This document shows positions 11,731-62,015 of a stretch of DNA of 64,000 nt, piece after piece (the first letter of the stretch is position 1; the number at the start of each line of letters is the position of its first letter). The stretch lies in contig NZ_POUL01000005.1 in NCBI RefSeq assembly GCF_002890895.1, positions 124,001 through 188,000 on the forward strand. The letters run 5' to 3'. The notes below the pieces were generated by a model. It saw only the letters and a list, made by a program, of their open reading frames with translations, did not search any database and was not told the origin of the DNA. The stretch comes from Stutzerimonas stutzeri. Its GTDB lineage: Bacteria; Pseudomonadota; Gammaproteobacteria; Pseudomonadales; Pseudomonadaceae. Position numbers and translations under genes: made by a program.

Positions 11731-11748
11731 AATAGCCAAAGGCTTACA
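11731..11748 (+). promoter_or_regulatory. GacA-type upstream activating element, sRNA copy 1
   Basis: An 18-base element (AATAGC, 6-base spacer, CTTACA). The right half is a full match to the GacA consensus (TGTAAG-N6-CTTACA); the left half is degenerate. It lies 43 bases before a likely -10 (TAATCT, 11792-11797), centred about 64 bases before the inferred transcript start. The second sRNA copy has the same element at exactly the same distance, which supports function. Confidence 0.7.
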
Positions 11749-11803
11749 TGAATCTGCGCGATCACGACTACAGCTCCTGCGTTCAAGTAATTAATCTATG
11801 CCC

Positions 11804-11908
11804 ACTCTGAAGCGCAGGAAGCGCTCAGGATCAGGATGATCGACCATTGCCAGGAAGGCGCTCGAATGGAATCGGATAGGTCAGAAAAACCCGCTTCGGC
11901 GGGTTTTT
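11804..11908 (+). ncRNA. RsmX/RsmY-type regulatory sRNA, copy 1
   Basis: An inferred transcript of about 105 nt folds into three successive short hairpins that each expose AGGA in the loop: AGCGC-AGGAA-GCGCT (11811-11825), GATC-AGGAT-GATC (11829-11841) and GCC-AGGAA-GGC (11849-11859). Further single-stranded GGA triplets lie at 11868 and 11874. It ends in a classic terminator (CCCGC-TTCG-GCGGG then five T, 11890-11908). Repeated GGA-in-loop hairpins are the hallmark of sRNAs that sequester the translational repressor RsmA/CsrA downstream of GacS/GacA. The 5' end is inferred from the -10 at 11792. The exact family name (X, Y or another) cannot be set without a search. Confidence 0.85.
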
Positions 11909-12140
11909 GCTTTTCCGCACCCTGCACACGCGTTTCGCGTCAGGCATTGCGCAGCACAGTTTGGCGGCGCTCGGAAAATGCTTCCTGGCCAAGCCACAGA
12001 CTGTTTCGGCAAGATTTGGCTTCTGCCATGCTGATGCTTTATGAAGTCACCGTCTGGTTTATCTCTGAAATTACCAGTGACTCAAATATTCCCGTGGCTG
12101 GGCAGTACTTTATAACTGAATTTAAATAATCCAGACGAAA

Positions 12141-12167
12141 AAAAGCCCCGCCGAAGCGGGGCTTTTT
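12141..12167 (-). terminator. Terminator of cold-shock gene (bidirectional shape)
   Basis: A 7-bp GC stem (12145-12151 with 12156-12162, loop CGAA) is flanked by A runs on the left and T runs on the right, so it can stop transcription on either strand. It lies 13 bases beyond the cold-shock stop. Confidence 0.85.
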
Positions 12168-12179
12168 ATTTCAGGCGTC

Positions 12180-12392
12180 TTAAGAGACTTGAACCTGATC
12201 AGCCTGCATTCCTTTCTGGCCCTTAGTGGCCAGGAAAGAAACTGCTTGGCCTTCGCTCAGGCTTTTGAAACCTGCGCTTTCGATCGAACGATAATGAACG
12301 AACAGGTCTTCGCTGCCGTCGGTCGGCGTAATAAAGCCGAAACCTTTTTCATCGTTGAACCATTTAACTGTGCCATTTTGACGAGTAGACAT
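12180..12392 (-). CDS. Cold-shock-domain RNA chaperone (CspA family)
   Basis: A 70-residue single cold-shock domain (OB fold). Both RNA-binding motifs are intact: RNP1 as KGFGFITP around residues 16-23 and RNP2 as LFVHYRSI around 30-37. The start [20 protein letters not shown] is typical of Pseudomonas CapB/CspD-like proteins. GGGAG lies eight bases before the ATG. It binds single-stranded RNA and DNA and eases mRNA structure in the cold or in slow growth. It is transcribed against the two flanking Rsm-type sRNAs, each several hundred bases away. Confidence 0.93.
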
Positions 12393-12545
12393 GAGTATCT
12401 CCCAGGTGTATTAAGGCTGCAGCGCTGAATTGTCCGGCGCCGAGACTGAGAAGCGAGAAGCAAAACGATCCGAGGAGATGAAACAGAGAAACATCATGCC
12501 GGGTGTCGAAGTGTTAATTGCGAAGCAGTGACCCGGAATATACGC
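12393..12545 (-). promoter_or_regulatory. Probable long leader and promoter of cold-shock gene
   Basis: A TATATT box on the minus strand at 12542-12537 would place the transcript start near 12530 and leave an untranslated leader of about 140 bases, as is common for cold-shock mRNAs. No good -35 hexamer is visible, so the call rests on the -10 alone. Confidence 0.35.
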
Positions 12546-12905
12546 ACATAAAAAGATATGTACAGCATTGTTTGCCTAAGGCTGTTTCAAGAAGGTGACT
12601 ACTGAGCATCTACAAAAAATGAGTTAGCCTGTTATCTCCGTTATTTACAGTCACATATCTCGCCGTTTTCATAAGATTAAATGTTGTGAAATTTCGCCGA
12701 AACTTTATGGGTCGTTTATCGCTCGGCTGGCGGCCAGTTCGCGCCTGCATTGAGAGATTACGGTCTGACATTAGCCCAATCTCCATGGCCCGTGCGGCGA
12801 TAGCGCAGAAGCGACAGCGCTACGTTAACGCCTCAAGCGCATTGCTCCAGAGTTTGTTTCGAGTCAGCGCTTAGAGAGGCTCCCGACGATGCGTTTGTCC
12901 CTTCC

Positions 12906-12923
12906 TATAGCGAAAGGCTTACA
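12906..12923 (+). promoter_or_regulatory. GacA-type upstream activating element, sRNA copy 2
   Basis: TATAGC, 6-base spacer, CTTACA, sharing the segment AGC-N-AAAGGCTTACA with the element of copy 1. It is followed after exactly 43 bases by the -10 TAATCT (12967-12972), the same spacing as in copy 1, although the bases between differ. Confidence 0.7.
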
Positions 12924-12978
12924 AGGATCCCAGTCTTTTGCTCTTCAGCTTGCACGGCCGGATGATTAATCTATGCCC

Positions 12979-13086
12979 AGCTCTGAAGCGCAGGACGCGC
13001 TCAGGATCAAGGAAGATCGACCATCGCCAGGAAGGCACCCGGAAGGATTCGGATGGTCAGGAAAAACCCGCTTCGGCGGGTTTTTT
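12979..13086 (+). ncRNA. RsmX/RsmY-type regulatory sRNA, copy 2
   Basis: An inferred transcript of about 108 nt, closely similar to copy 1. It has the hairpins AGCGC-AGGAC-GCGCT (12987-13001), GATC-AAGGAA-GATC (13005-13018) and GCC-AGGAA-GGC (13026-13036), more GGA triplets at 13041, 13045, 13051 and 13060, and the same terminator (CCCGC-TTCG-GCGGG, then six T). The changes against copy 1 fall in loops and linkers while the stems stay paired, as expected for an RNA under structural selection. Predicted role: titration of RsmA/CsrA-type proteins under GacS/GacA control. Confidence 0.85.
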
Positions 13087-44526: not shown

Positions 44527-45300
44527 TTAGCGATGGCTGGACATGAACTGTTTACAGCGTGCCGATTGGGGATTGTCGAACACCTGCTCCGGCGTTCCTT
44601 GCTCTTCGACCAGGCCCTGGTGGAGGAAGACGACCTCACTGGAAACCTGCTTGGCGAAGTTCATTTCATGGGTGACCAGCAGCATGGTACGACCCTCATC
44701 GGCCAGCGACCGGATCACAGTAAGCACTTCTTGTACCATTTCCGGGTCGAGTGCCGAAGTGGGCTCGTCGAACAGGATCACCTGTGGCTGCATCGCCAGG
44801 GTCCGGGCAATCGCCGCTCGTTGCTGCTGACCACCGGAGAGCTGGTTCGGGTAGACGTGACGCTTGTCGGCGATGCCCACCTTGGCCAGCAGTGCCTCGG
44901 CCGTTTCGGTGGCTTCGGCCTTGCTCTGGCCCAGCACGCGACGTGGCGCCTCGATGATGTTGTCGAGCACGCTCATGTGCGGCCAGAGATTGAAGTTCTG
45001 GAATACGAAGCCGAGCTTGCTGCGCATCTGGTTGATCTGCTTGGCATCGGCAGCGACCAGATCGCCGTCTTTGGCGCGTTTTAGGCGCAACGCTTCGCCA
45101 GCGACGATGATCTCGCCCTCATTGGGATTTTCCAGCAGATTGATGCAGCGCAGAAAGGTCGATTTTCCTGAGCCGGACGAGCCGAGGATCGAGATGACAT
45201 CGCCGTCGCGGGCGGTCAGCGAGATGCCCTTGAGAACTTCCAGATCGCCGTAGCGCTTGTGCAGATTGCGGATTTCCAGTGCGGGTATGGCCTCGGCCAT
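44527..45300 (-). CDS. Polar amino-acid ABC transporter ATPase (HisP type)
   Basis: A 257-residue ABC ATPase. Walker A is GSSGSGKST near residue 41, the signature [15 protein letters not shown] near 159, Walker [16 protein letters not shown] near 179, and the switch His in [10 protein letters not shown]. It powers uptake of the amino acid. It is the first gene of the operon, 16 bases before the binding-protein start. Confidence 0.93.
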
Positions 45301-45595
45301 AGAGCTTCCTCTTCTCGAAACAGGTCATCGCCTGGTCCGTTTCTATGTAAATTGCGCTCCGGCCAACTGCTCGCCGTCCTGGCGAGGCGCAAACCTAGCA
45401 TGGGAGGGGGCATGCGCCAAGCGCGGCGCGGCCCCGAGTGCTGTGACCGGCCAGTCACTTCGCTTGCCGCGGCCAATGTGCCTTTACCTGTATAGATGAA
45501 GTTGACCTCGCTTGCCCGATACAGCCTCAGACCCGGATAACAACCGCCGGCCGAACCCTGGTAACGGGGCCGGCCGGGTGTCGATGCGAGCGCGG

Positions 45596-47653
45596 CTAGG
45601 ACGGCTCGCTCTTGGGCAGATCGGGATCGCCTGTGAGCATCTCGTCATGCTCGCCCATTTTCCACGGCAGGCTGCCGGGCGAGATGTGCAGGAAGTGCAG
45701 GTACTTCTCGAACTGGTCGAGGATGTCGCTGATGATGTCGGCCTGGTCATAGCCATAGATGTCGTAGTGCTGTCCGCCGCGGCGTAGGAAGACCTCGGCC
45801 CGGAAGTACTGCTCGTCGGTGTCCGGCCCCTCGGACAGGGCGAACGCTGGCATGGCATACCCGACAGCGCGGATCTCATAGACGAAATCCACCTGGTCCT
45901 CTTTGATTACTTCCAGATAGACCCGCGAATTGGCCTCGTCCGAGTGCACTTCGGCCGTCCACTCCTGGCCGCCAAGCTCGCGCTGCACTCGACGCATGGC
46001 CTTGAGTACGGTGCTGCCCATGAACGCATCGACCTGCTCGCGATCAGGAAAACTGACCAGGCCGGCCAGCCGCTTCTTCCACAGGCCGGGCCCGGCATTG
46101 CTGGCCAGTCGGCTGCTCTGCATATGGTTCTGCAGACTGGTTTCATGGTGCCCTTCGATCACCAGCGCGCGCCACATGCCCAGCGCGGCAATCATCATGA
46201 TGATGGCGAAGGGTAGGGCACTGGCAATGGTCATGGTTTGCAGCGCGCTAAGCCCGCCCGCCAGCAACAGCGCGGAGGCGACTACGCCCTCGATGCTGGC
46301 CCAGAAGACCCGCTGCCAAACGGGCGTATGAATTGCGCCACCGGCTGCCAGGGAGTCGATTACCAGCGAGCCGGAGTCGGAGGAGGTTACAAAGAAGGTT
46401 ATGATCAGCACCACCGCCAGAAAGGAGGCGATGGAGGTCATCGGCAGCAGCTCGAACAGTTTGAACAGGGCGATGGCGTTGTCCGCCTGCACGTCGGATA
46501 TCAGCGAGGTGTAACCCTCGACCATGATCAAGTGCAGCGCGGTATCACCGAATACCGAGAACCAGAGAAAGGTGAAGATGGTCGGCACGAACATCACGCC
46601 GAAGACGAACTGGCGAATGGTCCGGCCGCGACTGATCTTGGCGATGAAGAGGCCGACGAAGGGCGACCAGGCGATGGTCCAGCCAAAGATGAACAGCGTC
46701 CAGTTGCCGATCCAGTCGCTGCGGCTGTAGGCCTGAAGGTTAAAGGTCCGTTCGATGATGTTGTTCAGGTAGCTGCCGGTGTTCTGCAGGAAGGTCTCGA
46801 GGATAAAGATGCTCGGCCCGACCAGGAATACAAACACCATCAGCCCGATCGCCAGGACCATGTTCAGCAGCGACAGGTTCTTAACGCCCTTGTCCAGGCC
46901 GGCAACCACCGAGCAGATCGCCAGACCGGTGATGATCGCGATAGCGATGATCTGGACGTTGATGCTGATCGGTATCGAGGGCCAGAGGTAGTTGACGCCC
47001 GCATTGATCTGAGTGACCGACAATCCGAGTGTCGTGGCGATGCCGAACAGGGTGCCGAGAATCGCAAAGACATCCACAACATGACCGATCGGGCCGTAGA
47101 TGCGCTCGCCGATGATCGGGTAGAGCGCCGAACGCATGGACAGCGGCAAGCCGTGGCGGAACGAAAAATACGCCAGGACCAGTCCGGTCAGCCCATAAAT
47201 CGCCCAGATATGGAAGCCCCAGTGGAAGAAGGCGATCTGCATCGCCTGCTTGGCGGAATCAACCGTTTCCGCCGCGCCCGCTGGTGGCGACGCATAGTGC
47301 AATACCGGCTCGGCGACGCCGAAAAACAGCAGTGCGATGCCGTATCCAGCTGAAAACAGCATCGCAAACCAGGCCGGAAAGCTGTACTGCGGCTCGGCGT
47401 GGTCGGGGCCCAGCTTGATGCTGCCCCAGGGCGTCATGGCGATGCCGACGATGAACACCAGAAAAAACGCCACCGACAGCATGTAGAACCAGCCGAAATT
47501 GGTGGTGATGAAGGCCAGCGTAGAGCTGAACACCTCGCCGGCCAGATCCGGGTTGCTCATCGTGCCTATGACGAGAAGGAGCGTGACGACCACGGCGGGG
47601 ATGAAGACGGGGAAAAGGATGATGGCCTTGGGTAGCTTTTTGTTTGCTTCCAT
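45596..47653 (-). CDS. betT: BCCT-family choline/betaine-type transporter
   Basis: A 685-residue BCCT transporter. It has 12 predicted helices in the first 500 or so residues and a long cytoplasmic C-terminal domain (about 170 residues, QEWTAEVHSDEANSRVYLEV), which in BetT of Pseudomonas is involved in osmosensing. The family core FHWGFHIWAIYGLTGLVLAY is near residue 150, and the aromatic-rich region FGWTIAWSPFVGLFIAKISRG near 325 is the BCCT signature. It likely imports choline with H+ or Na+. The ATG at 47653 is chosen over a GTG at 47683, which has no ribosome site. Confidence 0.9.
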   Translation of the reverse strand: MEANKKLPKAIILFPVFIPAVVVTLLLVIGTMSNPDLAGEVFSSTLAFITTNFGWFYMLSVAFFLVFIVGIAMTPWGSIKLGPDHAEPQYSFPAWFAMLFSAGYGIALLFFGVAEPVLHYASPPAGAAETVDSAKQAMQIAFFHWGFHIWAIYGLTGLVLAYFSFRHGLPLSMRSALYPIIGERIYGPIGHVVDVFAILGTLFGIATTLGLSVTQINAGVNYLWPSIPISINVQIIAIAIITGLAICSVVAGLDKGVKNLSLLNMVLAIGLMVFVFLVGPSIFILETFLQNTGSYLNNIIERTFNLQAYSRSDWIGNWTLFIFGWTIAWSPFVGLFIAKISRGRTIRQFVFGVMFVPTIFTFLWFSVFGDTALHLIMVEGYTSLISDVQADNAIALFKLFELLPMTSIASFLAVVLIITFFVTSSDSGSLVIDSLAAGGAIHTPVWQRVFWASIEGVVASALLLAGGLSALQTMTIASALPFAIIMMIAALGMWRALVIEGHHETSLQNHMQSSRLASNAGPGLWKKRLAGLVSFPDREQVDAFMGSTVLKAMRRVQRELGGQEWTAEVHSDEANSRVYLEVIKEDQVDFVYEIRAVGYAMPAFALSEGPDTDEQYFRAEVFLRRGGQHYDIYGYDQADIISDILDQFEKYLHFLHISPGSLPWKMGEHDEMLTGDPDLPKSEPS

Positions 47654-47963
47654 GTGTTTTCTGGCCTCTGGCTGGCTGGACACGGGGGGACGGAAACGCG
47701 CAGGGACGCCTCGAAGCGAAACCGATATCAGAAGGGTAGACGGTGTTTGGCCAGGGAATACTCACCAGAAATTGTTGTTGCGGAGCGTTTAAGGCTCAAG
47801 GAAGTCGCCAGCCCTCTGCCGGATGGACGAGCTTTCCCGAGCCCAGGTAGAGCTTTCGCCGCTGCACTGTCGTGTTGCGGTGCGCCAGGCCTGCTGGCGG
47901 GCGCGCAGGAGAGCGTCCACAGATCTGGTTCGCCTCGTTGGCCTCCAGCTCCCCCCGGCTGTG

Positions 47964-48920
47964 CTAGACGGCCATGCTCTTGATGCGCGATTGCCTGCTA
48001 TAAAACGCCTGAATAGCCCACACAACGCCTATGAACAGCATCCCCGTGCCAAGCGCTTCGGCAGTAGACGGCCAGCGTTGCGAAATGAGCAGACCCAGTG
48101 CCGTCGCGTAAAGGGTTTCACTGGCGATCAACTGACCGCTGAGCGCGAGGGGTAGCCTGCGAGTTGCAACTGACCATGCCCACGCCGCAGCCAGTGTGGC
48201 GCCGAGGCCTTGCACCATTCCACTGATTATCAGCGCCTGAGTTCCGGCCACTTCGCCTGGCTGTATAGCGAAGTTGGACAGCTCCAAGTAGAGCCCAACC
48301 GGGATAAAGACCAGCATTTCAACGGCGCAACTGATAATCAGCATGGCCGACCACAGCATCGGTGACATCTTTGGGCGTTTGGCCAAAGCGCTTTCATTGA
48401 ACAGGCCGAACCCCGTCCAAAAGGCAATAGCGACCAGTGATGCAAGCAGCCCAAACAGTATTGAGCCTGTTGGGCGGTCCACCATCGCCCCGCTTGCGTT
48501 GAACACGCTGTAGTTGACCACCCCTATCCCAAGGGCTGCCATCACCAGCGGGCCGGCAATTGCGCGCCAGGGGATGCTGGAGCTTCGCAAGTTAGCAGTG
48601 ATGGCGAGCACTATCGGGACGGAGCCCATCATGACCGGAGGAATCACCGGACCTGCAGCCAATACCGCCGTGGTGATCAGAAAGAAGAAGCCGATATAGC
48701 CCAGGAACCCCAGCAGCGCGGCCCATGCCCAGTCGTTCAGCCGCAACTGTCGAACTTCACGACGGTAGATGAACAGCACTATCGCGCTGCCCACGCCGGC
48801 AAAGGCGTAGCTCACCACGGCCAGATCGAAAACGCTGTAATCGCCAACCAGTTGCGGAAAGATAAAGAGCAGTGACCAGGAAAAGGTCGCAGCTATTGCT
48901 GCCAGCAGGCCGAGTGTCAT
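47964..48920 (-). CDS. EamA/DMT-family transporter
   Basis: A 318-residue membrane protein with about 10 helices in two similar halves, as in the EamA (drug/metabolite) family. Its first helix is GLLAAIAATFSWSLLFIF. Its start overlaps the stop of the TetR gene by four bases, so the two are translated together, and the TetR is the likely regulator. It is probably an exporter of a small compound; the substrate is unknown. Confidence 0.85.
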   Translation of the reverse strand: MTLGLLAAIAATFSWSLLFIFPQLVGDYSVFDLAVVSYAFAGVGSAIVLFIYRREVRQLRLNDWAWAALLGFLGYIGFFFLITTAVLAAGPVIPPVMMGSVPIVLAITANLRSSSIPWRAIAGPLVMAALGIGVVNYSVFNASGAMVDRPTGSILFGLLASLVAIAFWTGFGLFNESALAKRPKMSPMLWSAMLIISCAVEMLVFIPVGLYLELSNFAIQPGEVAGTQALIISGMVQGLGATLAAAWAWSVATRRLPLALSGQLIASETLYATALGLLISQRWPSTAEALGTGMLFIGVVWAIQAFYSRQSRIKSMAV

Positions 48921-49489
48921 GCGCTCTTCTCCCGTGATTCCTGTTGCTGGATCCAGCTCTGAGCCATCCTTCGAGCTGTATCGAATACCGGCGTGTCCTG
49001 GCTCATCGAACCGCTGACAAAACTGCCCTCCAGCAAGATAAACAGGCCTTCAGCCGCTATATCAGGGTCCCGTACACCGGCGCTCGCGGCCAACGCCGAG
49101 AGATTCTCGCGAATCCCCTGTTTATGCCGACTGACTGCCAGGCGCACAGGATGGTCCGGCTGCGGGAACTCAGCCGCACTGTTGACAAACAAGCACCCGC
49201 GCCCGCTGTCTCGCAGAAGAAAGCGCTCATAGAGGTCGAAAAAAGCAAGCATGCTGCTGACCGGATCGGGCTGCTTCGCCAAGGTGCGCGCTACCTCTTC
49301 ACGCCAGCGCCGGTCGCGCTCATCAAGACAGGCCACTATCAAGGAATCTTTGGATGGGAAGTGGCTGTAGAGCGTCATCTTGGTAACGCCGGCCAAAGAG
49401 GCAATGGCCGTTACCCCAGTGATATGCACACCGTGCGATAGGAACAGTCTCAGCGCCGAATCAATCAAGCGCGTTCTGGTTTTGTCCAT
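48917..49489 (-). CDS. TetR/AcrR-family regulator
   Basis: A 190-residue TetR protein: N-terminal helix-turn-helix (GVTAIASLAGVTKMTLYSHF, residues about 24-43), then an all-helical ligand domain. It starts MDKTRTRLIDSALRLFLSHG at 49489. Coupled to the EamA transporter by a four-base overlap, it probably represses its own operon and is released by a compound that the transporter exports. A possible operator lies about 35 bases upstream (49523-49539). Confidence 0.88.
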   Translation of the reverse strand: MDKTRTRLIDSALRLFLSHGVHITGVTAIASLAGVTKMTLYSHFPSKDSLIVACLDERDRRWREEVARTLAKQPDPVSSMLAFFDLYERFLLRDSGRGCLFVNSAAEFPQPDHPVRLAVSRHKQGIRENLSALAASAGVRDPDIAAEGLFILLEGSFVSGSMSQDTPVFDTARRMAQSWIQQQESREKSA

Positions 49490-49522
49490 GGTGCAGGTCT
49501 CAGCGTGGTGACAGCTGAAACT

Positions 49523-49539
49523 ATACTGACCGGTAAGGT
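49523..49539. promoter_or_regulatory. Possible TetR operator
   Basis: ATACTGACCGGTAAGGT is centred on the palindrome ACCGGT and resembles half-conserved TetR-family operators of the ATAC-tgACCGGT-type. It lies just upstream of the TetR gene. This is a shape match only. Confidence 0.3.
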
Positions 49540-49776
49540 TGAGGTTTGCCCAAATACGACCTGGGTTCTGGCTGTTACGACAAGGACAAGAAGCGGTGAC
49601 CAGGCGGCAGTGGAGAGCCTCACCCATCTGGGTCTGGTCATTGGCCATGAGACGGCGAGCAATACCGTGCTGGGCCGCTCACGCGGCGCGAAAGTCAGCC
49701 TTCTCTGTTGAGCGCTGCTGCGCCTTGGTGCGTGGGGGTGAGCCGGCGGTCAGGGGCTCGGTCCGGTCGGAGCGGT

Positions 49777-50112
49777 TTAGGGGGTATTTCTGGCCAAGGA
49801 AAAGCCCCTTAGCAACAGGCGCAGCCAGTCGGGCTTCCAGCTCAACGTCAATGACAGCGTGAAGGCGGAGGCGCTGAGCAGCAGCGCCCAGAGCACCGCT
49901 CCGAAACCGCTGCCCTGTATCTTCAGCAGAATCACCAGCGCAGCGGTAAGGCACGTTACCGCAACGAACAATCGAGCAAACTGACCCGCAGGCGAGGCTG
50001 CATGGGCCAGCGGATCGACAGCCTTGCGATGCGGCGCCTGGGAGAGTGCCAACAGGGCGAAGGCGAAATAGCACAGCGCGAATGCCAACATCGAGGCGAG
50101 CAGTTCAGGCAT
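49777..50112 (-). CDS. DUF3325-type small membrane protein
   Basis: A 111-residue protein with about three hydrophobic segments (LLASMLAFALCYFAFALLAL, FVAVTCLTAALVILLKIQG, VLWALLLSASAFTLSLTLSW). DUF3325 proteins stand next to PepSY and DUF3649 genes in siderophore-iron operons, as here. It probably works with the PepSY membrane protein in siderophore-iron reduction or release; the exact function is unknown. It overlaps the PepSY stop by 8 bases. Confidence 0.8.
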   Translation of the reverse strand: MPELLASMLAFALCYFAFALLALSQAPHRKAVDPLAHAASPAGQFARLFVAVTCLTAALVILLKIQGSGFGAVLWALLLSASAFTLSLTLSWKPDWLRLLLRGFSLARNTP

Positions 50113-51682
50113 GAGGCGGCTCGATCCGTGAAGGGCGCGAGGCGGGTGGTGCGCTGATCTGGGCCCTTCGAATTCGTCGCGACGCCAGCAGGCAGAGCCC
50201 AGCGAGTACCAGCAGCATCATGTCCATGCCTGCAACGGCGGCAGATCCGGAAAACAGGCTGAGCGGCAGTAGAAAAGCGGTGGTGAGTGCATTAAGCGCC
50301 ACCGCTGTAACAGCCAGTACGGCAGCACATTGCAATTGCTGGCGCCACGCCTGCGCCGGGTAACACGCAGCGTGGGCCAGTGCCAGAAGCCAGCTCAAAC
50401 AGAACGCCCAAATCTCCAGCTCTGCGCGACTTTGGCCAAACCATTCACTGCCAGCGGGCAGCAGCCGGTTTGTGACGAAGAAGGTCAGCGTTGCGATCAT
50501 CAGTCCTGGGCCGGCCGTCACGCTGACAGCGTCGACCACCCGAGTGCCGATGCGTCCCTGACGTTCATGCCTGGCGCGCCGCGAGCCGGACCAGAACAGC
50601 AGGCCGGTGCCGATCAGCACACAGCCACTCATGCCACCGATGAAATAGAGCCAGCGCAGCGTCCAATGCTCGAACTGGATGAAATGCAGGCCGGTCAGAA
50701 AGCGCTGCACGCCAGCAACGGGGGCCGCCGAGTGCTGGTGCAGCAGCTCACCCGTGGTGCCGTCAAACGTCAGCCGATCGACATTCATCGTCACCTCGTT
50801 GGCATGGGAGCGGCGAAACTCGACATAGGCGTTACGGTCGCCTGGATGCCAGACCCGCACGAAGTAAGCTTGGCCAGGCGTGCCGCTCCTTTCCCAAACT
50901 TCTTTTGCGCTCGTCAGCATTCTGTCCAGCGACGCGATCTCTGCGGTCAGTCCGGATGCCGGGCGTGAGTAATTACCCAGTGCCTCCAGCTGGAGCTGCG
51001 CCCGGCCTTGTGGATAGAGGGTCTGGGTGATTCCGGGGAAATAGATCGAATAGAAAATGATCAGCCCCGACAGGCTGATGCCGAAGTGAAACGGCAAGAC
51101 CAGCACACCGGTCAGGTTGTGCAGATCTAGCAGTTTGCGCTGCAGTCGCTTGTGCGGTCGAAACGTGAAGAATTCGGCGATCAGCTTCCGATGCGCGACG
51201 ATGCCGGACGTCAGTAGCACCAGCATGCCCATTCCGGCCGCGCCAACCAGCCAGTAGCCGATGCTGCGCCAGCCCAAGTGCAGGCTGAAGTGGAAGGGAA
51301 ACAGGAACCGGGTGCCGGCCCAGCTGCCCTGGTCGGCCAACAGTTCACCGGTACGCGGATCGATATGACGGCGCACGGCATCTTGTTGTGGGCGCCGGTA
51401 GTCAAGCTGAAGCGTCGGCACGCGCGGTGTCGGCAGGCTGATGCTCCAGACAGGAGCGTCCTGCGCCAGTTGGCGCGCATGAGGGACGACGAGCTGGTCA
51501 AGCGAGAACTCCACGGGAGGCGGCGGAAGGCGCGTGTCGGGTTGCATCCAGCGGTCGATTTCCCGATCGAAGACTGAAAGCGAGCCGGTCCAGAAGATTG
51601 CCAGAAGCAAGCCGCCAAATAGCACGCCCGCCCAGGTGTGGAGCCATGACATCGACTGCCGAAAGCCGCTACCAGGCGCCAT
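50105..51682 (-). CDS. PepSY-associated membrane protein (iron-reductase-like)
   Basis: A 525-residue inner-membrane protein with PepSY-associated helices. It begins SMSWLHTWAGVLFGGLLLAIFWTGS, has a large periplasmic part, and later helices such as WLYFIGGMSGCVLIGTGLLFWSG. His residues in several helices (SLHLGWRS, LHNLTGVLVLPFHF, FEHWTLRWL) could bind heme, as in siderophore reductases FoxB/FegB. Its start follows the DUF3649 stop directly (TGAATG). It may reduce ferric siderophores in the periplasm. Confidence 0.85.
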   Translation of the reverse strand: MAPGSGFRQSMSWLHTWAGVLFGGLLLAIFWTGSLSVFDREIDRWMQPDTRLPPPPVEFSLDQLVVPHARQLAQDAPVWSISLPTPRVPTLQLDYRRPQQDAVRRHIDPRTGELLADQGSWAGTRFLFPFHFSLHLGWRSIGYWLVGAAGMGMLVLLTSGIVAHRKLIAEFFTFRPHKRLQRKLLDLHNLTGVLVLPFHFGISLSGLIIFYSIYFPGITQTLYPQGRAQLQLEALGNYSRPASGLTAEIASLDRMLTSAKEVWERSGTPGQAYFVRVWHPGDRNAYVEFRRSHANEVTMNVDRLTFDGTTGELLHQHSAAPVAGVQRFLTGLHFIQFEHWTLRWLYFIGGMSGCVLIGTGLLFWSGSRRARHERQGRIGTRVVDAVSVTAGPGLMIATLTFFVTNRLLPAGSEWFGQSRAELEIWAFCLSWLLALAHAACYPAQAWRQQLQCAAVLAVTAVALNALTTAFLLPLSLFSGSAAVAGMDMMLLVLAGLCLLASRRIRRAQISAPPASRPSRIEPPHA

Positions 51683-52024
51683 TCAGTCTGTCCCCAGCAG
51701 GGGAGCTAGCCATTGGCTTAGTGCCCCTCCGATCAGGATGCCTGTCAGCAGCAGCGCCCAGACCCGCCAGAGTCTGGGCTCGCTGAAACTCCAGATGAGC
51801 AACACGAGATAGAGAATAAAGCCCAGCATTGCAGCCAGGATTACCGCTTCGCTGCGCGCGATGCTGCCAAACAGGACCAGCAGTTGCGCGCTTGCCGAGG
51901 CTAGCGCGACCGTGCAGGCATAGCCGCCACCGATGGCCGCGACAACGCGCAGCGCCAGGCTGGCGCGGCGTGACCATCGATGGCTTGGAACTTGCCTGTC
52001 AGGCTTTGTCGCGGCTGCGGCCAT
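51683..52024 (-). CDS. DUF3649-type small membrane protein
   Basis: A 113-residue protein with three hydrophobic segments (LALRVVAAIGGGYACTVALA, AVILAAMLGFILYLVLLIWS, VWALLLTGILIGGAL). DUF3649 proteins are regular members of TonB-receptor/PepSY iron operons and are sometimes labelled iron transporters. It lies four bases after the receptor stop and abuts the PepSY start. Confidence 0.8.
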   Translation of the reverse strand: MAAAATKPDRQVPSHRWSRRASLALRVVAAIGGGYACTVALASASAQLLVLFGSIARSEAVILAAMLGFILYLVLLIWSFSEPRLWRVWALLLTGILIGGALSQWLAPLLGTD

Positions 52025-52028
52025 GGCC

Positions 52029-54158
52029 TCAGAAACTGACCTGATAACCGAGGGTGAACGTGCGTCCGCGGCCGTTGAACACTCGCCCGTTGCGGGTCAG
52101 GTCCGAGCCGGTATTGGCCGCCTGCGAGTAGTAGGTCAGGTAGTCCTCGTTGAACAGGTTCTCGATCCCCAGGCGGGCTTCGCCGACCGGCAGGCGATAA
52201 CCCAGCGTGGCATCGACCAGGGTGTATCCATCGAAATCCAGCCCAGGCTGATCGAAGCTTCTGCTGGCGTAGTGGTTGGCCTGCAACAGGCTGTGCAGCT
52301 TGTCGTTCCAGTTGGCCTGCCAGCCGATGCCATAGCGATCCGGCGAGATGTTCGCACCATTGAGGTCGGTATCGACCTTGCCGTCATCGTCAGTATCGGA
52401 CTGGCCGTTGACCTGTGCATACATCAGCTTCAGGCGGTGCGCCTCGGTGATCTGCCAGCCACCGGTGAACTCGATGCCATCGATTTCGGTGCGCTCGCGG
52501 CGAACCTGATAGACCCCGCCCACGCTGTCCAGCCGCGATCCGAGTTCGGCATCCGACTCGTAGTAACTGATCTCCGCATCGAACGGGCCGTGGTTCAGGC
52601 GAAAGCCGATTTCACGGTTTTCGGTAACGACCGGTTGCAAGTCTAGGAAGTTGTCCACACTGGTTCCCGGAGTGCCGATGCCCCGCAGCACGCGACCGAC
52701 ATCCGGCATGCCGAAGCCTTCCGAGTAGTTGGCGAACAGTTGCGCCCAGTCATTCATTTGCCAGACCACACCGGCGTTGTAGAGCGTTTCCTCGAAGGTC
52801 GGGTTGCCACCTTCCACATCAACATTGCCTACCGGTTTGGTCGAAGCGATGGTGCGGAAGCCGTCGACGTCGAGGTCGGCGAATTCATGACGCACCCCCG
52901 CGTGGAAGGTCAGCTGGTCGAGGGCGCGGATCTCAGCCTGAAGGAAAGGGGCATAGTTACGGAATACCGTCTCAGGAACCCACTCCCGATCAGTGAGGAT
53001 CAGCTGCTGGCTGGTAGTGTCCTGCAGCACATCAAGACCGCCGGTGAGCATCAGGCGATTGTCGAGCATGCCGTCGCGGCTGACGGTCAGCTTGCCGCCG
53101 ATCTTGTCAGACTCGTTCTGCGACTGGTCGAACAGCGTTCCCGCTGGCGCGATGCTGGGGTCCTGGAAAGTGGCGTTCGTGCCGCCACCAAAACGTGCAC
53201 GAAATCGCTGGGTATAAAGCTGCAGGCCCAGTTCGTTGCCATAGAAATCGGCATGCTTGTAGGACAGGCTGGTGGCCAGCGTTTCGTTCTGAGGAGCCTT
53301 GCCCTGCGGGTCGCCTTTGCGCGAAGTGGCGGGAATCTCAGCGTTGGCGTTACCCGGTACGTTGACGTACTCGTGTTCGCCTTCGACTTCGTAACGATTG
53401 ATCATCAAGCCGATGTTCTGATTGTCATCCAGCCAGTAGCCGAGCTTGAGCAGCAGATCGGTGCCGGTCGAATCCATCACGTCGCCCTGGGTGTCGTCGA
53501 CGCCGATCAGATCCCCATTGGCGTCGTAGAACATGCCCTGAGTCTGCCAGCTGGCGGCGGCAAGGTAGTCGAGATCGCCCTGGGTGCCTTCAACACGGTA
53601 GTCAAGTTTGTAGCCCAGTCCTTCGGACTCGTAGTCTCCGGGTGCGGTAAAGCTGACGCCCGCGTGCTGGCGCAGCGCACCGCTGGCCGGGCGGCGGGTG
53701 ACATAGTTGATGATACCGCCCGTGGCACCCAGACCGTGCTCGGCACTGGCTCCGTGGATGACTTCGATGCGTTCGACCATCGACAGGTCGATGACGTAAC
53801 CGTCGCGCTGGCTGTCACGCAGCGGTGTGGACTGTGGTACGCCGTCGATGAGAATCAGCGCCGAGCGGCCGCGGAAAGTCTCGCCTGCGCTGCTCATCTT
53901 CTGCCTGCTTGGCGAATAGGACGGGATCAGGTTGCTTAGCACAGCGCCATGATCCGAGGTAATCGCCAGTTGTTGTTCGATCTGCTCGCGGCTGATCACC
54001 GTAATTTTCTGTGGCGTCTTGCCGGCCTCGCTGCGGGCGCGTGTCGCGCTGATGGTTACCGCCTCAAGTTCAGCGGCCTTTTCGGCGAAGGCCGGGACCG
54101 ACAAGAAGGAAATCGACGCGAGCGAAATGGACAGACACAGACAGGATTTGCGGAACAC
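52029..54158 (-). CDS. TonB-dependent siderophore receptor
   Basis: A 709-residue outer-membrane receptor. The GTG at 54158 has GGGAG six bases upstream and gives a signal peptide MFRKSCLCLSISLASISFLS with cut near AFA. The plug domain is at about 40-150 (ITVISREQIEQQL, ALILIDGVPQSTPLRDS, VIHGASAEHGLGATGGIINYVT), and the rest is a 22-strand barrel ending in FTLGYQVSF with the terminal Phe. Probable ligand: a ferric siderophore of the carboxylate or hydroxamate type, not resolvable here. A Fur box lies upstream. Confidence 0.92.
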   Translation of the reverse strand: MFRKSCLCLSISLASISFLSVPAFAEKAAELEAVTISATRARSEAGKTPQKITVISREQIEQQLAITSDHGAVLSNLIPSYSPSRQKMSSAGETFRGRSALILIDGVPQSTPLRDSQRDGYVIDLSMVERIEVIHGASAEHGLGATGGIINYVTRRPASGALRQHAGVSFTAPGDYESEGLGYKLDYRVEGTQGDLDYLAAASWQTQGMFYDANGDLIGVDDTQGDVMDSTGTDLLLKLGYWLDDNQNIGLMINRYEVEGEHEYVNVPGNANAEIPATSRKGDPQGKAPQNETLATSLSYKHADFYGNELGLQLYTQRFRARFGGGTNATFQDPSIAPAGTLFDQSQNESDKIGGKLTVSRDGMLDNRLMLTGGLDVLQDTTSQQLILTDREWVPETVFRNYAPFLQAEIRALDQLTFHAGVRHEFADLDVDGFRTIASTKPVGNVDVEGGNPTFEETLYNAGVVWQMNDWAQLFANYSEGFGMPDVGRVLRGIGTPGTSVDNFLDLQPVVTENREIGFRLNHGPFDAEISYYESDAELGSRLDSVGGVYQVRRERTEIDGIEFTGGWQITEAHRLKLMYAQVNGQSDTDDDGKVDTDLNGANISPDRYGIGWQANWNDKLHSLLQANHYASRSFDQPGLDFDGYTLVDATLGYRLPVGEARLGIENLFNEDYLTYYSQAANTGSDLTRNGRVFNGRGRTFTLGYQVSF

Positions 54159-54211
54159 GAGAAGCTCCCGATATTGGTGTTGTTGGGAAATCGGGGCGGG
54201 AATGTAAACTA

Positions 54212-54231
54212 AATGAAAATAATTGGCATTA
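54212..54231. promoter_or_regulatory. Fur box upstream of the TonB receptor
   Basis: The 20-base block matches the 20-base Pseudomonas-style Fur motif I had in mind (AAATGATAATAATTATCATT) at 17 positions. It lies 54 bases upstream of the receptor start, in an AT-rich patch in an otherwise GC-rich region. It predicts iron repression of the whole receptor-DUF3649-PepSY-DUF3325 operon. Confidence 0.75.
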
Positions 54232-54526
54232 GCTTTGTCGTCATGCTGACGCCACTGGCCACCTCGCGGGTGTTATCGCCGGGAGCAAAGTGCTCTGCCT
54301 CGGGCATTCGACGGGGGAAGTCATCATTTAAGAGGCGTTGATACAAAATGTAAGCCGCACTTGGGCCGGATGCCACGCAGGTCGTCTGGACCTGAGGCGC
54401 GCCGGTTTGCGGCGGACATAGATGCCGCGCAGGGCAGGGCGATTGGCTTGATGCGCTCGGTGTTGCGGAGAGAGGCTGCTGGGCCGCAGACGAAGAGTTC
54501 GTAGCAGAAAATAAGCGGCAGAAAGC

Positions 54527-54557
54527 AAAAAGGCCCACCGCATGGGTGAGCCTTTTT
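54527..54557 (-). terminator. Original tRNA-Phe terminator, now left of the island
   Basis: AAAAAGGC and GCCTTTTT (54527-54534 with 54550-54557) pair around an inner CACC/GGTG stem. Read on the minus strand it would stop transcription entering from the right. It lies 12 bases left of the left att repeat, so before the island was inserted it would have been 12 bases after the tRNA-Phe 3' end. Confidence 0.75.
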
Positions 54558-54568
54558 GTTCGGATTAG

Positions 54569-54592
54569 TGGTGCCAGGGACGGAACCGAACC
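54569..54592. repeat. Left attachment repeat (attL)
   Basis: 24 bases that match the 3' end of tRNA-Phe (62016-62040) except for one deleted base and one A/T-C change. The shared core CCAGGGACGGAA is uninterrupted. It marks the left junction of the integrative element. Confidence 0.75.
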
Positions 54593-54641
54593 ATGCGATG
54601 AAAGTGGCGCGATATAAGGCTTTCTCTAGTGTGCGGTAAAT

Positions 54642-54654
54642 AATCTACGCACAA
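54642..54654. repeat. Integrase arm-type repeat, left end
   Basis: AATCTACGCACAA, identical to 61892-61904 next to the integrase. A second partial copy (AATCTACCC) follows. Short repeats of this sort at both ends of an integrated element fit arm-type binding sites of the tyrosine recombinase. Confidence 0.55.
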
Positions 54655-54814
54655 ATCTACCCGCTTTTTCTTTTGCTGCCCCCTGTTTTGGAGTTTCGGG
54701 TCGCTGTTGTGCCTTGGTGTTTTCTTAGCGTGCTCCGGCTCGCTATCAGCGTCGAAATCTAAACCCATCTACTTTGGAAACCGTGCCGGGGCGCTTGATA
54801 TCCGTTGATTGTTT

Positions 54815-55060
54815 TTTCAGCCTTACCCCTTGGGGCAACCTTGGGGTTCCTCCCCGTAATCGCCCCGTCACCCTTGCGCTAATCGTCCGGCTACGCGATC
54901 GGCTTACCGTGACCTTACCGTTTCGTCTTGCGGTGATCTTGGGGCTACCTCGCCCTAATCTCGCCCTCGTCTTACCGTTCCGACTGGTCACCGGGGCTGG
55001 TAACCCTTGCCCTAACCTTGCCGTCCGCCTCACCCTGATATCACCCTCTTGGACTCGCGC
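54815..55060. repeat. Degenerate direct repeats (iteron-like region)
   Basis: At least nine copies of a short motif of the form [C/T]TNACC[C/G]T or a close variant occur in about 240 bases; perfect CTTACCGT copies lie at 54903, 54914 and 54971. Others are TCACCCT at 54868 and two more near 55030 and 55041, plus CGCCCTAAT-type variants. Such spaced repeats are seen in plasmid and satellite origins, bound by a replication initiator. A matching initiator is not proven. Confidence 0.45.
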
Positions 55061-55708
55061 GCGTGCGCGTACTGGTCACTAAACCGGCTTTCATGGGGTT
55101 GATTCCCCGAAACGGGGTGCCGCGTGGAAAGTGCGCGTGAAAAATGCGTGCTTTCCGTGCGTACCAGCTTGCGCACCAGGACTGCGAACCAATAGCGCGA
55201 ACATTGCGAACCGCTGTCGTGATCGGCTTATCGGGTCATGCGGGGAATGCGGATTTTGGGGAAACAAGAATGTAGCTCCCCCTATCGTTCGGGAAAGCGA
55301 AGCGATGAACTTTCAACCCACCCCCTCCCCACAAAGGGTCCTCCCGGCAGGGCGGCACGGGTGCGGGTGGTTCGTGCCGTGACCATTCGCTATATACGGC
55401 GCTGTCAGGTGGGTTGGTTGTTGTTTCGTTGTCTCGCTCCAGGCTTCGCCGGTCGGGCGCTGGTGCTGGGCAATAGGCCAACTGGTGCCGGTCGTTTCCG
55501 CATGGCTGGTAATCGTTGCGGGCTTGCTGGCGGGGCTTCCAGCGGAAAGCGGAACCGGAAGCGGTGGAAGCCCCAAAAAATCCGTATGAAGCGAAAGGGC
55601 GGGGCACGAATCACCCCCATAGGCCCACCCCGTCAGGAGGACCCAAGGCCACCCCTTAGACCACGCGCAGCACGGGTGGCAGCTTGAGCGTTCGAGCTTC
55701 GCTAGCTT

Positions 55709-56044
55709 TCATAGACTCGGCTCCTCTGGTGCGTCGTCTAGTTTCGCATCAGGCCAGCGCCAGCGAACGGCGGCTAAGGCTGCGGAATAGGTCATTGGCT
55801 GTCCCACCATGTAACCAATCGGCTGGCCTGCTCGGGTAATCCTCCAGGCGGCGCGCTTCGGCTCGATGGTGGATGTGTGTGTTGAGTCGTTGGCCGCGCT
55901 CAGCTCTGCCAGCAGTTCGGTCAGGTGCTCCCGTATGAACTGGCGCATGGGGTCGGTGATGCGCTCGACCGGCGAGACGCGCAGTCGGTCGGCCACGCAC
56001 TCGACAGTCAGACCGGCCCGGCGCAGGTGGCCCAGGGCGGCCAT
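55709..56044 (-). CDS. Small TubC_N-like docking-domain protein
   Basis: A 111-residue protein whose N-terminal half (HLRRAGLTVECVADRLRVSP, then ITDPMRQFIREHLTELLAEL) resembles the TubC N-terminal docking-domain fold, which binds partner proteins through short motifs. The C-terminal part is Trp/Arg-containing (RRAAWRITRAGQ is not quite this but AAWRITRAGQPIGYMVGQ is seen) and unassigned. Similar small proteins end replication modules of integrative elements in Pseudomonas. It overlaps the ATPase gene by one base (TAATG). Its role may be protein recruitment to the helicase or initiation complex. Confidence 0.6.
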   Translation of the reverse strand: MAALGHLRRAGLTVECVADRLRVSPVERITDPMRQFIREHLTELLAELSAANDSTHTSTIEPKRAAWRITRAGQPIGYMVGQPMTYSAALAAVRWRWPDAKLDDAPEEPSL

Positions 56045-57564
56045 TATCCGAAGTACTCCGCGTTGTCTTCGGTCTGTACCCTGTTTTTATCCGTAACATC
56101 GTCACAAGCCGCGCCATTGCTGTCTTTCAGCCTGTTTTTATCCGTAACGATTGGCGCTTGCGTTACGCCTTTAAAACCGCTGTAAGCCGCGTGGTTGCTG
56201 GCTTGTGACGGTGTTACGGCTGTTGCGGGGGTGTCGGAGGACAGATACCGTTTGAACGCTTCGGTGAACTGCTCCCGCTTGTAACCCTTGGCGACCTTGT
56301 AGCCGATGCGATGGGTGCTCGGCTTGATACCGAACTCAGAGAGCCGCTTGGAAAGCTGGTGCGGTGTCATGGGTTTGCCTCGGTTCCACGCGGCCCACGG
56401 CGCTTCCTCATCTTCGGCCAGTGCCTCCAATAGATCGGCGGTCGCCAGACGCTCGGCGCGGCGGGTGTCGAAAGCGTCGCGGATCGAAGCCAGCAACTCC
56501 GCGCCGATGCTGGGGGTGTCTTCCTCCAGGCCGTGAAGTGTCGCGGCAGCATTACGGGCTATGCGCGGCCAGTTGCCCCCGGCCACTTCCGCGACGGCTA
56601 GCAGCGGTTCCCAACAGTCGTTGGCGCGGTCATTCAGGCCGTCCACTTCGGCGGGTCTGGCTGTGCGGATGGCCTCTCGGTTGTCGATAGCGAAGCGTGC
56701 CAGCTTGCTTACCAGCTCGGCGAAGGCGGCGGGGTCGGCGTGACGAATCTTTACCGTACGCTCCCCCGGTAGCTTGCGGCGCAGGCGTAGCGGAATGCTC
56801 CGGTCGGACAGGGTGTCGGCAATCTTCCCGATACCGCATAGCGCCTTCGCGCCCCATACATTGAACCGGGTGGGCATGTGGTCATCGCCAACGCAGCGAA
56901 TCACGAAAGCGGAGTCACGCGTAAACCCGGCATTGAGTATGCCCCGCGCTTCCTCGTGTTCGGCCAAGAAGGCGTCCACCTCGTCAATCAACAGGGTTGG
57001 CGTCCACAGCTCCAAGGCGCGGAACAACGCAGCCGGAGCGATGTTGGAGACGGCCAGCGAGCGGCAGGCTAGACGTGCCAGCACGCCAAGCATTACCGTT
57101 TTCCCGCAACGCTTCTCCGGAGCGGTGATGTTTGCAATCGGCGCGACGTTCACCACGTCCACAAACCATGTAAAGGCGGTCCACAGCGCAGCGGCGTGAA
57201 CAGTTGCCGGGTCGGCTATCACATGGCGGCGAATGATCGCGGCCAAGGCTTCCAGCAGCTCGGCACCGTCCACCAGATCAGGCCATAGCGTGACCTCGGG
57301 GAACAGCTCATCGGTGCCCCCAGCAGCTTCGTTGGCTGGGCTGGTCAGCTTGTCCAGGTCGACCATGCTTGCTGTCTTGGCTTCCTTCACCGCGTGACGA
57401 ATGCGCGCCCAGCGAGCAGGGTCGGTTCCTCTAACCTGGCGCAGCAGGGCCAGCACTTCGGGTTCGAAGATCGCTCCGGGATCTTGCTTGCTCCTGGCGA
57501 GTGCGTCCGCGATCGGGTCGGGTGCCGGTACGGGTTCGGGGATCAGTTCGGCAAGGTTGCTCAT
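56044..57564 (-). CDS. DUF3631 domain ATPase
   Basis: A 506-residue protein of the replication module. Walker A is in NITAPEKRCGKTVMLGVLA near residue 165; Walker B is TLLIDEVDAFLAEHE near 205. The middle and end (WNRGKPMTPHQLSKRLSEFG, IKPSTHRIGYKVAKGYKREQ) match DUF3631, an SF3-helicase-like domain of phage and island replication proteins. It overlaps the Toprim gene by four bases (ATGA), with GGGAGG upstream. It probably works as the helicase or loader of the element. Its tail has a duplicated VTDKNR. Confidence 0.85.
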   Translation of the reverse strand: MSNLAELIPEPVPAPDPIADALARSKQDPGAIFEPEVLALLRQVRGTDPARWARIRHAVKEAKTASMVDLDKLTSPANEAAGGTDELFPEVTLWPDLVDGAELLEALAAIIRRHVIADPATVHAAALWTAFTWFVDVVNVAPIANITAPEKRCGKTVMLGVLARLACRSLAVSNIAPAALFRALELWTPTLLIDEVDAFLAEHEEARGILNAGFTRDSAFVIRCVGDDHMPTRFNVWGAKALCGIGKIADTLSDRSIPLRLRRKLPGERTVKIRHADPAAFAELVSKLARFAIDNREAIRTARPAEVDGLNDRANDCWEPLLAVAEVAGGNWPRIARNAAATLHGLEEDTPSIGAELLASIRDAFDTRRAERLATADLLEALAEDEEAPWAAWNRGKPMTPHQLSKRLSEFGIKPSTHRIGYKVAKGYKREQFTEAFKRYLSSDTPATAVTPSQASNHAAYSGFKGVTQAPIVTDKNRLKDSNGAACDDVTDKNRVQTEDNAEYFG

Positions 57565-58481
57565 TGATTCGCCTCCCGCCATTGGCGCAGGTCGTTGAAG
57601 TCGGAAAGGCTCGGCGGCTCGGCTCCGCTCCAGGGCGGCAAGACCAGCCCACATTCCAGCGCGGCGGCGGCTTGGGTGGCTGCGGTGCGTCCGGGGTTGC
57701 CCTCGGTCTGGCGGTCATCGTCACCCGCGATAATCAAAGTGCTGTCCGGGTAGTGCCGCTGTAGGTGGCGCCCGACTTCCAGCAGATTGCCCGCATTCAT
57801 TGCGCAGGCGACGGCGGCTCCTTTGGCTTCGTGAATAGTGGCGCCAGTTGCCCAACCTTCGCAGACGTACAGCGGCTGGCCTGGCTCCAATGTGCCGATG
57901 GGCGAATAGCAACCCTTCACCCGGCCACCAGACAGAAACCGCTTGTCGCCGTCCGCTGCGATGCGTTGCAGGTTGACCAGCACGCGCCATAGGTAGAGCG
58001 GAACCAACAGAACTTCGCCACGCTGGCGCAGCCCATGAGACTTGCAGCCCTTAGCGATCAGGTATGGGTGTCGCGGGTCAGCCGGGGCGCTGGTGTTCCA
58101 TAGCCGTTGCGCCTCGATGGCTGCGGCTTGCTGGCGCTGGTGCTGCTCCGCTTCGCGCTGGTGGCGTGCCTTCTCGATGCGCTGGCGGATCAATTCGGTT
58201 TCCATCGGGTCGGCTGGTTTGCGGCTGCTCCAGATGCTTGAGCCTCCCGCCTTCCAGCTGCCGAACGCACCCGACGCGATGCCGTCCAGGTGCAAGACAT
58301 ACCAGCCGTTGAGCGTGCCGGGTTTGTCGTCTGGCACGCGGAAACGGTGAATGGTGCCGTCTGCTACAGGCAGCCAATCCAACGGGCCGAATGTGGCTTG
58401 CAGGGCGTCGCGGAAAGCCAGTTCGGCTTTCTCCAGGCAAGCCGATCCCCTCGACGCATGGGCGCCGTTTTGAATGGTCAT
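57561..58481 (-). CDS. Toprim domain (primase-like) protein
   Basis: A 306-residue protein with a C-terminal Toprim-like domain. The acidic catalytic residues can be seen in LYVCEGWATGATIHE (Glu near residue 206) and LIIAGDDDRQTEGNPGR near 251. The N-terminal half (WYVLHLDGIASGAFGSWKAG) is that of phage/plasmid DUF927- and primase-associated proteins. It probably primes replication together with the DUF3631 ATPase. Gap to the next upstream gene is three bases. Confidence 0.85.
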   Translation of the reverse strand: MTIQNGAHASRGSACLEKAELAFRDALQATFGPLDWLPVADGTIHRFRVPDDKPGTLNGWYVLHLDGIASGAFGSWKAGGSSIWSSRKPADPMETELIRQRIEKARHQREAEQHQRQQAAAIEAQRLWNTSAPADPRHPYLIAKGCKSHGLRQRGEVLLVPLYLWRVLVNLQRIAADGDKRFLSGGRVKGCYSPIGTLEPGQPLYVCEGWATGATIHEAKGAAVACAMNAGNLLEVGRHLQRHYPDSTLIIAGDDDRQTEGNPGRTAATQAAAALECGLVLPPWSGAEPPSLSDFNDLRQWREANQ

Positions 58482-58484
58482 GGT

Positions 58485-58817
58485 TTAGCCCTCTGCGGTG
58501 GGGTGTGGCGCGGCGGCCTTGCGGCGCTCTAGCTCGTACTCGGCGCCGTTGGCCACGTCAGTGAGCCGGCCCGATAGGTAGCCAAGTGATTGAAGCAACC
58601 AGCCAATATCGCGGGCGGTATGGTTGGTAAGTTCACCAGCGTCGGCGGTGTTGGCCAGCAGCTCGCCAATGGCGGCGATGCCGTGCCCGACCGTCATAGC
58701 CTCGCACTCGGCGGTGCGCTCGATTGCGTCCAGATCGTCGGCGGACAGTGTGTTAAGGCGCGAAGGGTCCGGCAGTAGATGGCCCCAGCACACGGCGATG
58801 GAGTGCGGCGCGCTCAT
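58485..58817 (-). CDS. Hypothetical protein of replication module
   Basis: A 110-residue protein with no recognised family. It has two Cys near the N-terminus (SIAVCWGHLL, AECEAMTVG) and is probably mostly helical. It overlaps the winged-HTH gene by four bases and is followed after three bases by the Toprim gene, so it is part of the same transcript and translation unit. Its function is unknown. Confidence 0.6.
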   Translation of the reverse strand: MSAPHSIAVCWGHLLPDPSRLNTLSADDLDAIERTAECEAMTVGHGIAAIGELLANTADAGELTNHTARDIGWLLQSLGYLSGRLTDVANGAEYELERRKAAAPHPTAEG

Positions 58818-59113
58818 TCTGTTGCCTCCGCGCTGGTGCTGCTCAGGTAGTAAAGGGCGACGCCGTTATGGGTAATGCCGTCCTCATCGGTCAACGTGAC
58901 CCGTTCGGTGCGGATGGTGTGGCCAGCGGTGCGCAGCTCCTTTATGCGCCCTCCAGGGTGCATGACATGCAGCTCGCGGCGGGCGGTAAAAGTGTCCAAT
59001 GCGCCCATCCGTAAACGTGCCAGCAGACGGGCGCGCTGTGCTTCGACGCTGGTACTATGGCGCTGCGTTTTCTTGGGGCTGGCCTGTTGGTCGGCCTTTT
59101 TTGTGTCGGTCAT
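58814..59113 (-). CDS. Helix-turn-helix protein of island
   Basis: A 99-residue protein with a winged-helix-like C-terminal half. ARLLARLRMGALDTFTARRE followed by HPGGRIKELRTAGHTIRTER resembles small HTH proteins in Pseudomonas islands that I recall (RLLARL...TTLEARREL). The first 25 residues are basic and probably disordered. It abuts the AlpA-type gene (one base between) and overlaps the next by four bases. It may act in replication control or excision. Confidence 0.7.
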   Translation of the reverse strand: MTDTKKADQQASPKKTQRHSTSVEAQRARLLARLRMGALDTFTARRELHVMHPGGRIKELRTAGHTIRTERVTLTDEDGITHNGVALYYLSSTSAEATE

Positions 59114-59335
59114 TTATGCAGCCTCCCCGCGTTGGGCGGCGAGCGAATCGCACCACTGCAAAATTTCTAATTCGACCCAGGCAACGGACTTAGGCCCAAG
59201 GGTGACTTGAGCTGGGAAGGTTCCGGCAGCAATGCGCCGGTAGATTTCGGATGTGGAAAGGCTGGTGTAGTCCTTCACCTTGGCCAGCTTGATAAAGCGG
59301 CATGGAAGTTGGGCGGGGTTCGTATGTGCGGCCAT
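59114..59335 (-). CDS. AlpA-family excisionase/regulator
   Basis: A 73-residue MerR-like helix-turn-helix protein; FIKLAKVKDYTSLSTSEIYR and RRIAAGTFPAQVTLGPKSVAW match the AlpA family, which regulates integrases or acts as excisionase. The start at 59335 has AGAGG eight bases upstream. It heads the six-gene replication module and could control both integrase and module. Confidence 0.85.
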   Translation of the reverse strand: MAAHTNPAQLPCRFIKLAKVKDYTSLSTSEIYRRIAAGTFPAQVTLGPKSVAWVELEILQWCDSLAAQRGEAA

Positions 59336-59448
59336 ATCGTGTGCCTCTTGGGCTTTGTTGAACACGATTGGCATTGAATACAGCGAAGCGGCAGAAGTAA
59401 CCGCAACTGCGGAGCGAGAAACCGCAATTGCGGTGCGGCTGCGGTGAC

Positions 59449-60498: not shown

Positions 60499-60597
60499 TG
60501 CCACGCCCTCCCAGGCGCTCCCATCCTGAATAAATCGGCTAGCCAGGCGGGTGGGAAATCCGCTTTTCGCTCCGTCGAGCTAGGCCAGCCAAAACCG

Positions 60598-61806: not shown

Positions 61807-61854
61807 TGCAATTCCCTCGCAAGCCGCGCCATTCGGGCGCCCCATTGTGTCGCT

Positions 61855-61904
61855 GTGAGTAGATTTTTAGACCGAACCGGCTCTACTCACGAATCTACGC
61901 ACAA
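61855..61904. repeat. Integrase arm-type repeats, right end
   Basis: Three copies of TCTAC[G/T]CAC lie within 50 bases: an inverted one at 61855-61866 (GTGAGTAGATTT), TCTACTCAC at 61882-61890, and AATCTACGCACAA at 61892-61904. They lie between the integrase gene and the att core, and one copy is shared with the left end (54642-54654). Confidence 0.55.
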
Positions 61905-61946
61905 TTGTTTGGGCTTACAAGGGAAGGGTAGGGAAGTGCAGACAAC

Positions 61947-61967: not shown

Positions 61968-62015
61968 CTTCTTGTGGGCTTTCGGGTGGTTTTGACACCA
62001 CCTGAAAACGAAAGG

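Follow-up and report, generated by a model that had tools for sequence, protein, structure and literature searches.

Paired rsmX Small RNA Genes around a Cold-Shock Gene at a Conserved Locus of Stutzerimonas stutzeri

Results

The window, the whole 64,000-nucleotide stretch of Stutzerimonas stutzeri DNA that was analyzed, carries two rsmX genes on the + strand, copy 1 at 11802..11909 and copy 2 at 12978..13086, separated by a gap of 1,068 nt. In an Rfam covariance search, both copies matched RF02144 over the full model, positions 1 to 114, with 75.6 and 92.1 bits, respectively, against a cut-off of 56. The E-values of the two matches were 4.2e-12 and 7.3e-16. No third RF02144 match was found in the genome among the 150 of 830 first-look candidates that were scored, and none of 14 control genomes (0/14) gave a match. 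Identification of the copies as RsmY (RF00195) was rejected, with 43.4 and 36.2 bits falling below the cut-off of 57. The first-pass annotation had proposed two Rsm-type sRNA genes flanking a cold-shock gene and had offered a covariance search as the point at which this could fail. Rsm/Csr matches were found, both copies exceeded the rsmX cut-off, and the gene between them, on the - strand at 12180..12392, encodes a 70-aa cold-shock protein (Pfam CSD, 1.2e-28), so the proposal held. Its start at 11731 is instead the first base of a GacA-type site, and the RNA begins at 11802.

The predicted fold of each copy has three small GGA-loop hairpins and a terminator hairpin, along with one more small hairpin or stretch containing GGA. 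The GGA loops are AGGA as previously described, except for the second loop of copy 1, which is just GGA in the lowest-energy fold. Copy 1 contains 6 GGA triplets and copy 2 contains 8, and both end in a hairpin with a T-rich 3′ arm (11885..11908 and 13061..13086, + strand), the Rho-independent terminator expected of RsmX; the further triplets and the terminators had also been anticipated. Compared with 200 shuffled sequences each, copy 1 had a folding energy of z -2.8, equalled or bettered by a single shuffle, and copy 2 one of z -4.0, which none of the shuffles reached. A generic scan for sigma-70 promoters and terminators listed none of the features of the pair. The simple scan presumably missed both terminators because the T run was counted inside the stem.

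Aligned with each other, the two copies have the same letter at 94 of 107 ungapped positions, or 94 of all 110 columns, which makes them similar, and the earlier description "near-identical" too strong. Of the 16 columns that differ, 11 are unpaired and 5 are paired, the latter all confined to the outer third stem and the small hairpin that it encloses. The claim that stems are kept while loops vary is thus right as a trend, but not for these five paired differences.

Similarity between the copies extends upstream in two blocks. The first (11790-11908 with 12965-13085) comprises the RNA and a promoter core, and the second (11732-11754 with 12907-12929) covers the GacA-type site; the stretch between site and core has diverged. 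Copy 1 has its GacA-type upstream activating site at 11731..11748 (+), AATAGCCAAAGGCTTACA, with 2 mismatches to the pattern TATAGCGAAANGCTTACA. That of copy 2 at 12906..12923 (+), TATAGCGAAAGGCTTACA, has 0 mismatches and is the only mismatch-free fit in the genome. Both copies therefore show the GacA-type site expected for RsmX. Across the whole genome, 7 sites fit the pattern with at most three mismatches, versus 3 for a reversed control pattern. Compared with the GacA site printed for P. brassicacearum, TATAGCGAAACGCTTACA (PMC7911923), the copy 1 site shares 15/18 letters and the copy 2 site 17/18. The core block, ATTAATCTATGCCC, has the same letters in both copies (11790..11803 and 12965..12978, + strand), and its position suggests that it acts as the promoter.

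The upstream arrangement is conserved across the genus. Of the 80 rsmX copies at 48 loci, 79 have a CTTACA half-site that starts 58-61 bases 5′ of the RNA, the single exception being L049_1of1, versus any CTTACA at all in only about 2 of 80 shuffled upstream sequences. RF02144 matches occurred in 49 of 56 same-genus genomes, over the cut-off in 46; a search with stricter filters gave no rsmX match in the other 7. The 48 loci compared include that of the window's own genome and leave out one genome (G025) with a single 33.8-bit match. Two copies were present at 28 loci, one at 18, and three at 2, where the single copy of L084 may be an undercount, as this locus runs out near a contig end. Paralogues thus lie together at 30 of 48 loci, in agreement with the expectation of paired copies in relatives. 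In one genome, a third match, at 73.3 bits and thus over the cut-off, lies on another contig, away from the usual locus (G021:C13:4117-4224), and is not part of these counts.

The neighborhood is retained as well. At least one of the eight genes surrounding the window's pair was found nearby at 47 of 48 loci (exception, L071), and the cold-shock gene lies between copies at 22 of the 30 multicopy loci, that of the window included. The cold-shock, LysR, and S30AE/HPF-type neighbors have Pfam matches above the cut-off, and the histidine phosphatase neighbor falls just under it (19.8 vs 21.7 bits); a transporter, a lipoprotein, and two acyl-CoA metabolism genes were named by eye.

Searching named genomes with an exact pattern gave 24 stretches, every title being Stutzerimonas or Pseudomonas. 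When 148 genomes from the family, among them those of the same genus, were searched, 102 gave a match at E 0.001, and in 53 a match passed the cut-off. In each of two genomes from another genus of the family, five rsmX matches stand in a row with a period near 228 bases (G117:C1:1082522-1083551 and G131:C2:98627-99657), and some genomes of another set within the family carry several scattered copies.

Four GGA motifs are invariant in all 66 distinct genus copies (66/66). Standard pairs fill 94.1% of pair cells across these copies, compared with a shuffled mean of 93.2% (maximum 93.6% in 500 shuffles), and 8 pairs show double changes, against 3.9 on average in shuffles. For three of the 33 pairs, located in the outer third stem and the small hairpin it encloses, only about half of the sequences have a standard pair. 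Covariation among genus copies gives modest support to the structure. One rsmX copy, at L086:3627-3748 in reverse-complemented locus coordinates, has a second terminator-like stretch inserted 5′ of its terminator.

A maximum-likelihood tree was built from the 80 rsmX copies (66 different) over 111 columns, with 28 of 63 inner branches left open. A branch with support 97/95 unites 26 of the 28 first-position copies with 4 single copies and 2 copies from triple loci. Position labels are clustered, with 8 changes for first copies (shuffled mean 22.1) and 6 for second copies (shuffled mean 21.9). The second copies form more than one group, as at least 2 of their 6 changes are forced by supported branches. 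The window's two copies lie on different branches; copy 2 falls in a group (98/76, not starred) that also holds one triple-locus copy and 10 further second copies. Thirteen of the 28 second copies, the window's not among them, lie closer to the branch of first copies, a pattern compatible with partial gene conversion or with duplication on more than one occasion. The L040 and L048 pair lies outside the main first-copy branch. The three consecutive rsmX copies at L047:3641-4202 group with one another, and two of them are a single letter apart, which suggests recent duplication or conversion.

With 26 of 28 first copies gathered on a single supported branch, the duplication looks old. Genomes whose second copies are of different kinds have their first copies on this same branch, so the first lineage is most likely older than their split. 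The tandem duplication of an RsmX-like gene put forward in the first-pass annotation is supported by the match of RNA, promoter core, and GacA-type site between copies and by the adjacent paralogues at 30 of 48 loci, and it is older than "near-identical" implied. A very recent duplication in this strain was not supported, the copies lying in different branches.

Other parts of the Gac/Rsm pathway are present in the genome. One match over the cut-off was found each for RsmY (RF00195, 76.9 bits) and RsmZ (RF00166, 92.1 bits), together with two CsrA-family proteins. NF007018/PRK09483, which we take to be the UvrY/GacA family, gave one match over its cut-off of 280 (321.6 bits; 59 matches in all), and the matching gene is probably gacA.

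Outside the window and 62 kb away, a candidate RNA at G000:C18:73313-73434 (L035:1501-1622) scored under all Rfam cut-offs. Its RsmY score was 35 bits (cut-off 57), and it has GGA hairpins, a strong terminator, and a fold z of -4.0. Full-length homologues occur in 19 of 56 genus genomes, own included, with two more around the terminator only, and the aligned homologues have 5-9 GGA motifs each. Among eight loci scanned, five had RsmY matches at E 0.01 or better, each scoring under the cut-off. The genome-wide pattern search placed no GacA-pattern site within three mismatches near it. This candidate may be a further Rsm-type RNA, and we treat it as a lead.

Elsewhere in the window, 56044-62091 is a probable integrative element at tRNA-Phe (62016-62091), with ORF roles read by eye. 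It has an integrase-like ORF (60598-61845) and an int-alpA RNA (60524-60590), and further ORFs within it resemble the replication region of a mobile element. No direct repeat at tRNA-Phe was seen in a repeat search of 45000-64000.

Discussion

Herein, family membership, structure, promoter-site anatomy, synteny, and branch pattern identify the two sites as an rsmX pair. We are highly confident that the two are rsmX paralogues that each have a separate GacA-type site, promoter core, and terminator and would act as GacA-driven RsmA sponges. From this identity we infer transcription, GacA dependence, and RsmA binding of the window copies, as well as any division of labor between them. Titration of RsmA would follow by analogy with the RsmX family and with work on P. 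brassicacearum, in which the wild type transcribes RsmX-2, a gacA mutant does not, and overexpressing RsmX-2 in such a mutant brings back wild-type traits (PMC7911923).

Under this proposal, active GacS/GacA would lead GacA to switch on both copies. The resulting RsmX RNAs of roughly 108 nt would display GGA loops, bind RsmA-family dimers, and thereby draw them away from target mRNAs. Given the old duplication and the different lineages of the copies, both would most likely supply one common sponge pool, perhaps at unequal strength. When biofilms of P. stutzeri A1501 were assayed, an rsmY rsmZ double mutant already behaved like a gacA mutant, and the authors of that study suggest that no additional Rsm RNA is active in A1501 biofilm control (PMC8249394). 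RsmX may therefore be weak or silent in such conditions.

The copies could also have split roles, copy 2 being the main sponge and copy 1 answering other signals or binding a different RsmA-family protein. Their positions on different tree branches, the unequal agreement of their upstream sites with the published one (15/18 for copy 1 vs 17/18 for copy 2), and their GGA counts (6 vs 8) are in line with this, as is the 8-fold lower expression of rsmX-2 in P. brassicacearum, which its authors suggest may be explained by changes in the UAS (PMC7911923). However, the core GGA motifs are equal in both copies, and across the genus the bias is weak, the site score being higher in the second copy in 13 of 28 pairs, in the first in 6, and in neither in 9. 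The same authors suggest redundant function for their pair. We consider split roles possible but rather doubtful. A wider version is, in our estimate, unlikely: the pair would be genus-old paralogues with different jobs, and the candidate outside the window would titrate RsmA without a GacA site, giving five sponges and two RsmA-type proteins. If true, A1501 work taking RsmY and RsmZ as the full set would be incomplete.

Decay of copy 1, leaving copy 2 alone to matter, would account for its lower score (75.6 vs 92.1 bits), its weaker GacA-type site, and the single copy at 18 of 48 genus loci. However, copy 1 scores above the cut-off, retains the four core GGA motifs, the terminator, and the GacA-type site, and has the same sequence over 108 columns as its counterpart in the closest relative read, L057_1of2, which makes decay quite improbable. 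Simple GGA hairpins can arise by chance, but chance hairpins beside terminators were rejected as practically excluded by the covariance hits and their E-values, the 0/14 control genomes, the fold z-scores, and the conservation of neighborhood and upstream half-site in relatives.

This analysis extends a known family of regulatory RNAs by well-supported members and places rsmX at a conserved locus in many genus genomes, often in two and sometimes in three copies. Its main use is as a caution: P. stutzeri Gac/Rsm experiments that delete rsmY and rsmZ alone leave any rsmX pair intact. A search of open-licence literature found nothing on Rsm sRNA under the name Stutzerimonas, nor on rsmX in oryzihabitans; PMC12459779 mentions rsmX/Y/Z in A1501.

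Tandem rsmX genes are in print. PMC7911923 describes rsmX-1/rsmX-2 in P. brassicacearum NFM421 and predicts further pairs for P. fluorescens F113 and P. stutzeri, the P. stutzeri strain in its Table 1 being A1501, printed "A150". With both the tandem arrangement and a function for RsmX-2 published there, our finding is largely known, and the window pair represents additional members of a known RNA family. RsmY (RF00195) and RsmZ (RF00166) belong to the same Rfam clan as RsmX and share its sponge principle. P. syringae likewise has more than one rsmX copy, with two lying next to each other (Table 1 of PMC7911923), but its RsmX1-5 set comprises five rsmX genes (Moll et al. 2010, as cited in PMC7911923 and PMC7366521) compared with the two found in this genome. 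The closest counterparts are the listed tandems of P. stutzeri and P. brassicacearum NFM421, which agree with the window pair in family, size, GGA hairpins, GacA-type site, and tandem layout. The printed P. stutzeri copies are predicted and lie 129 nt apart, whereas those of the window lie 1,068 nt apart with the cold-shock gene between them.
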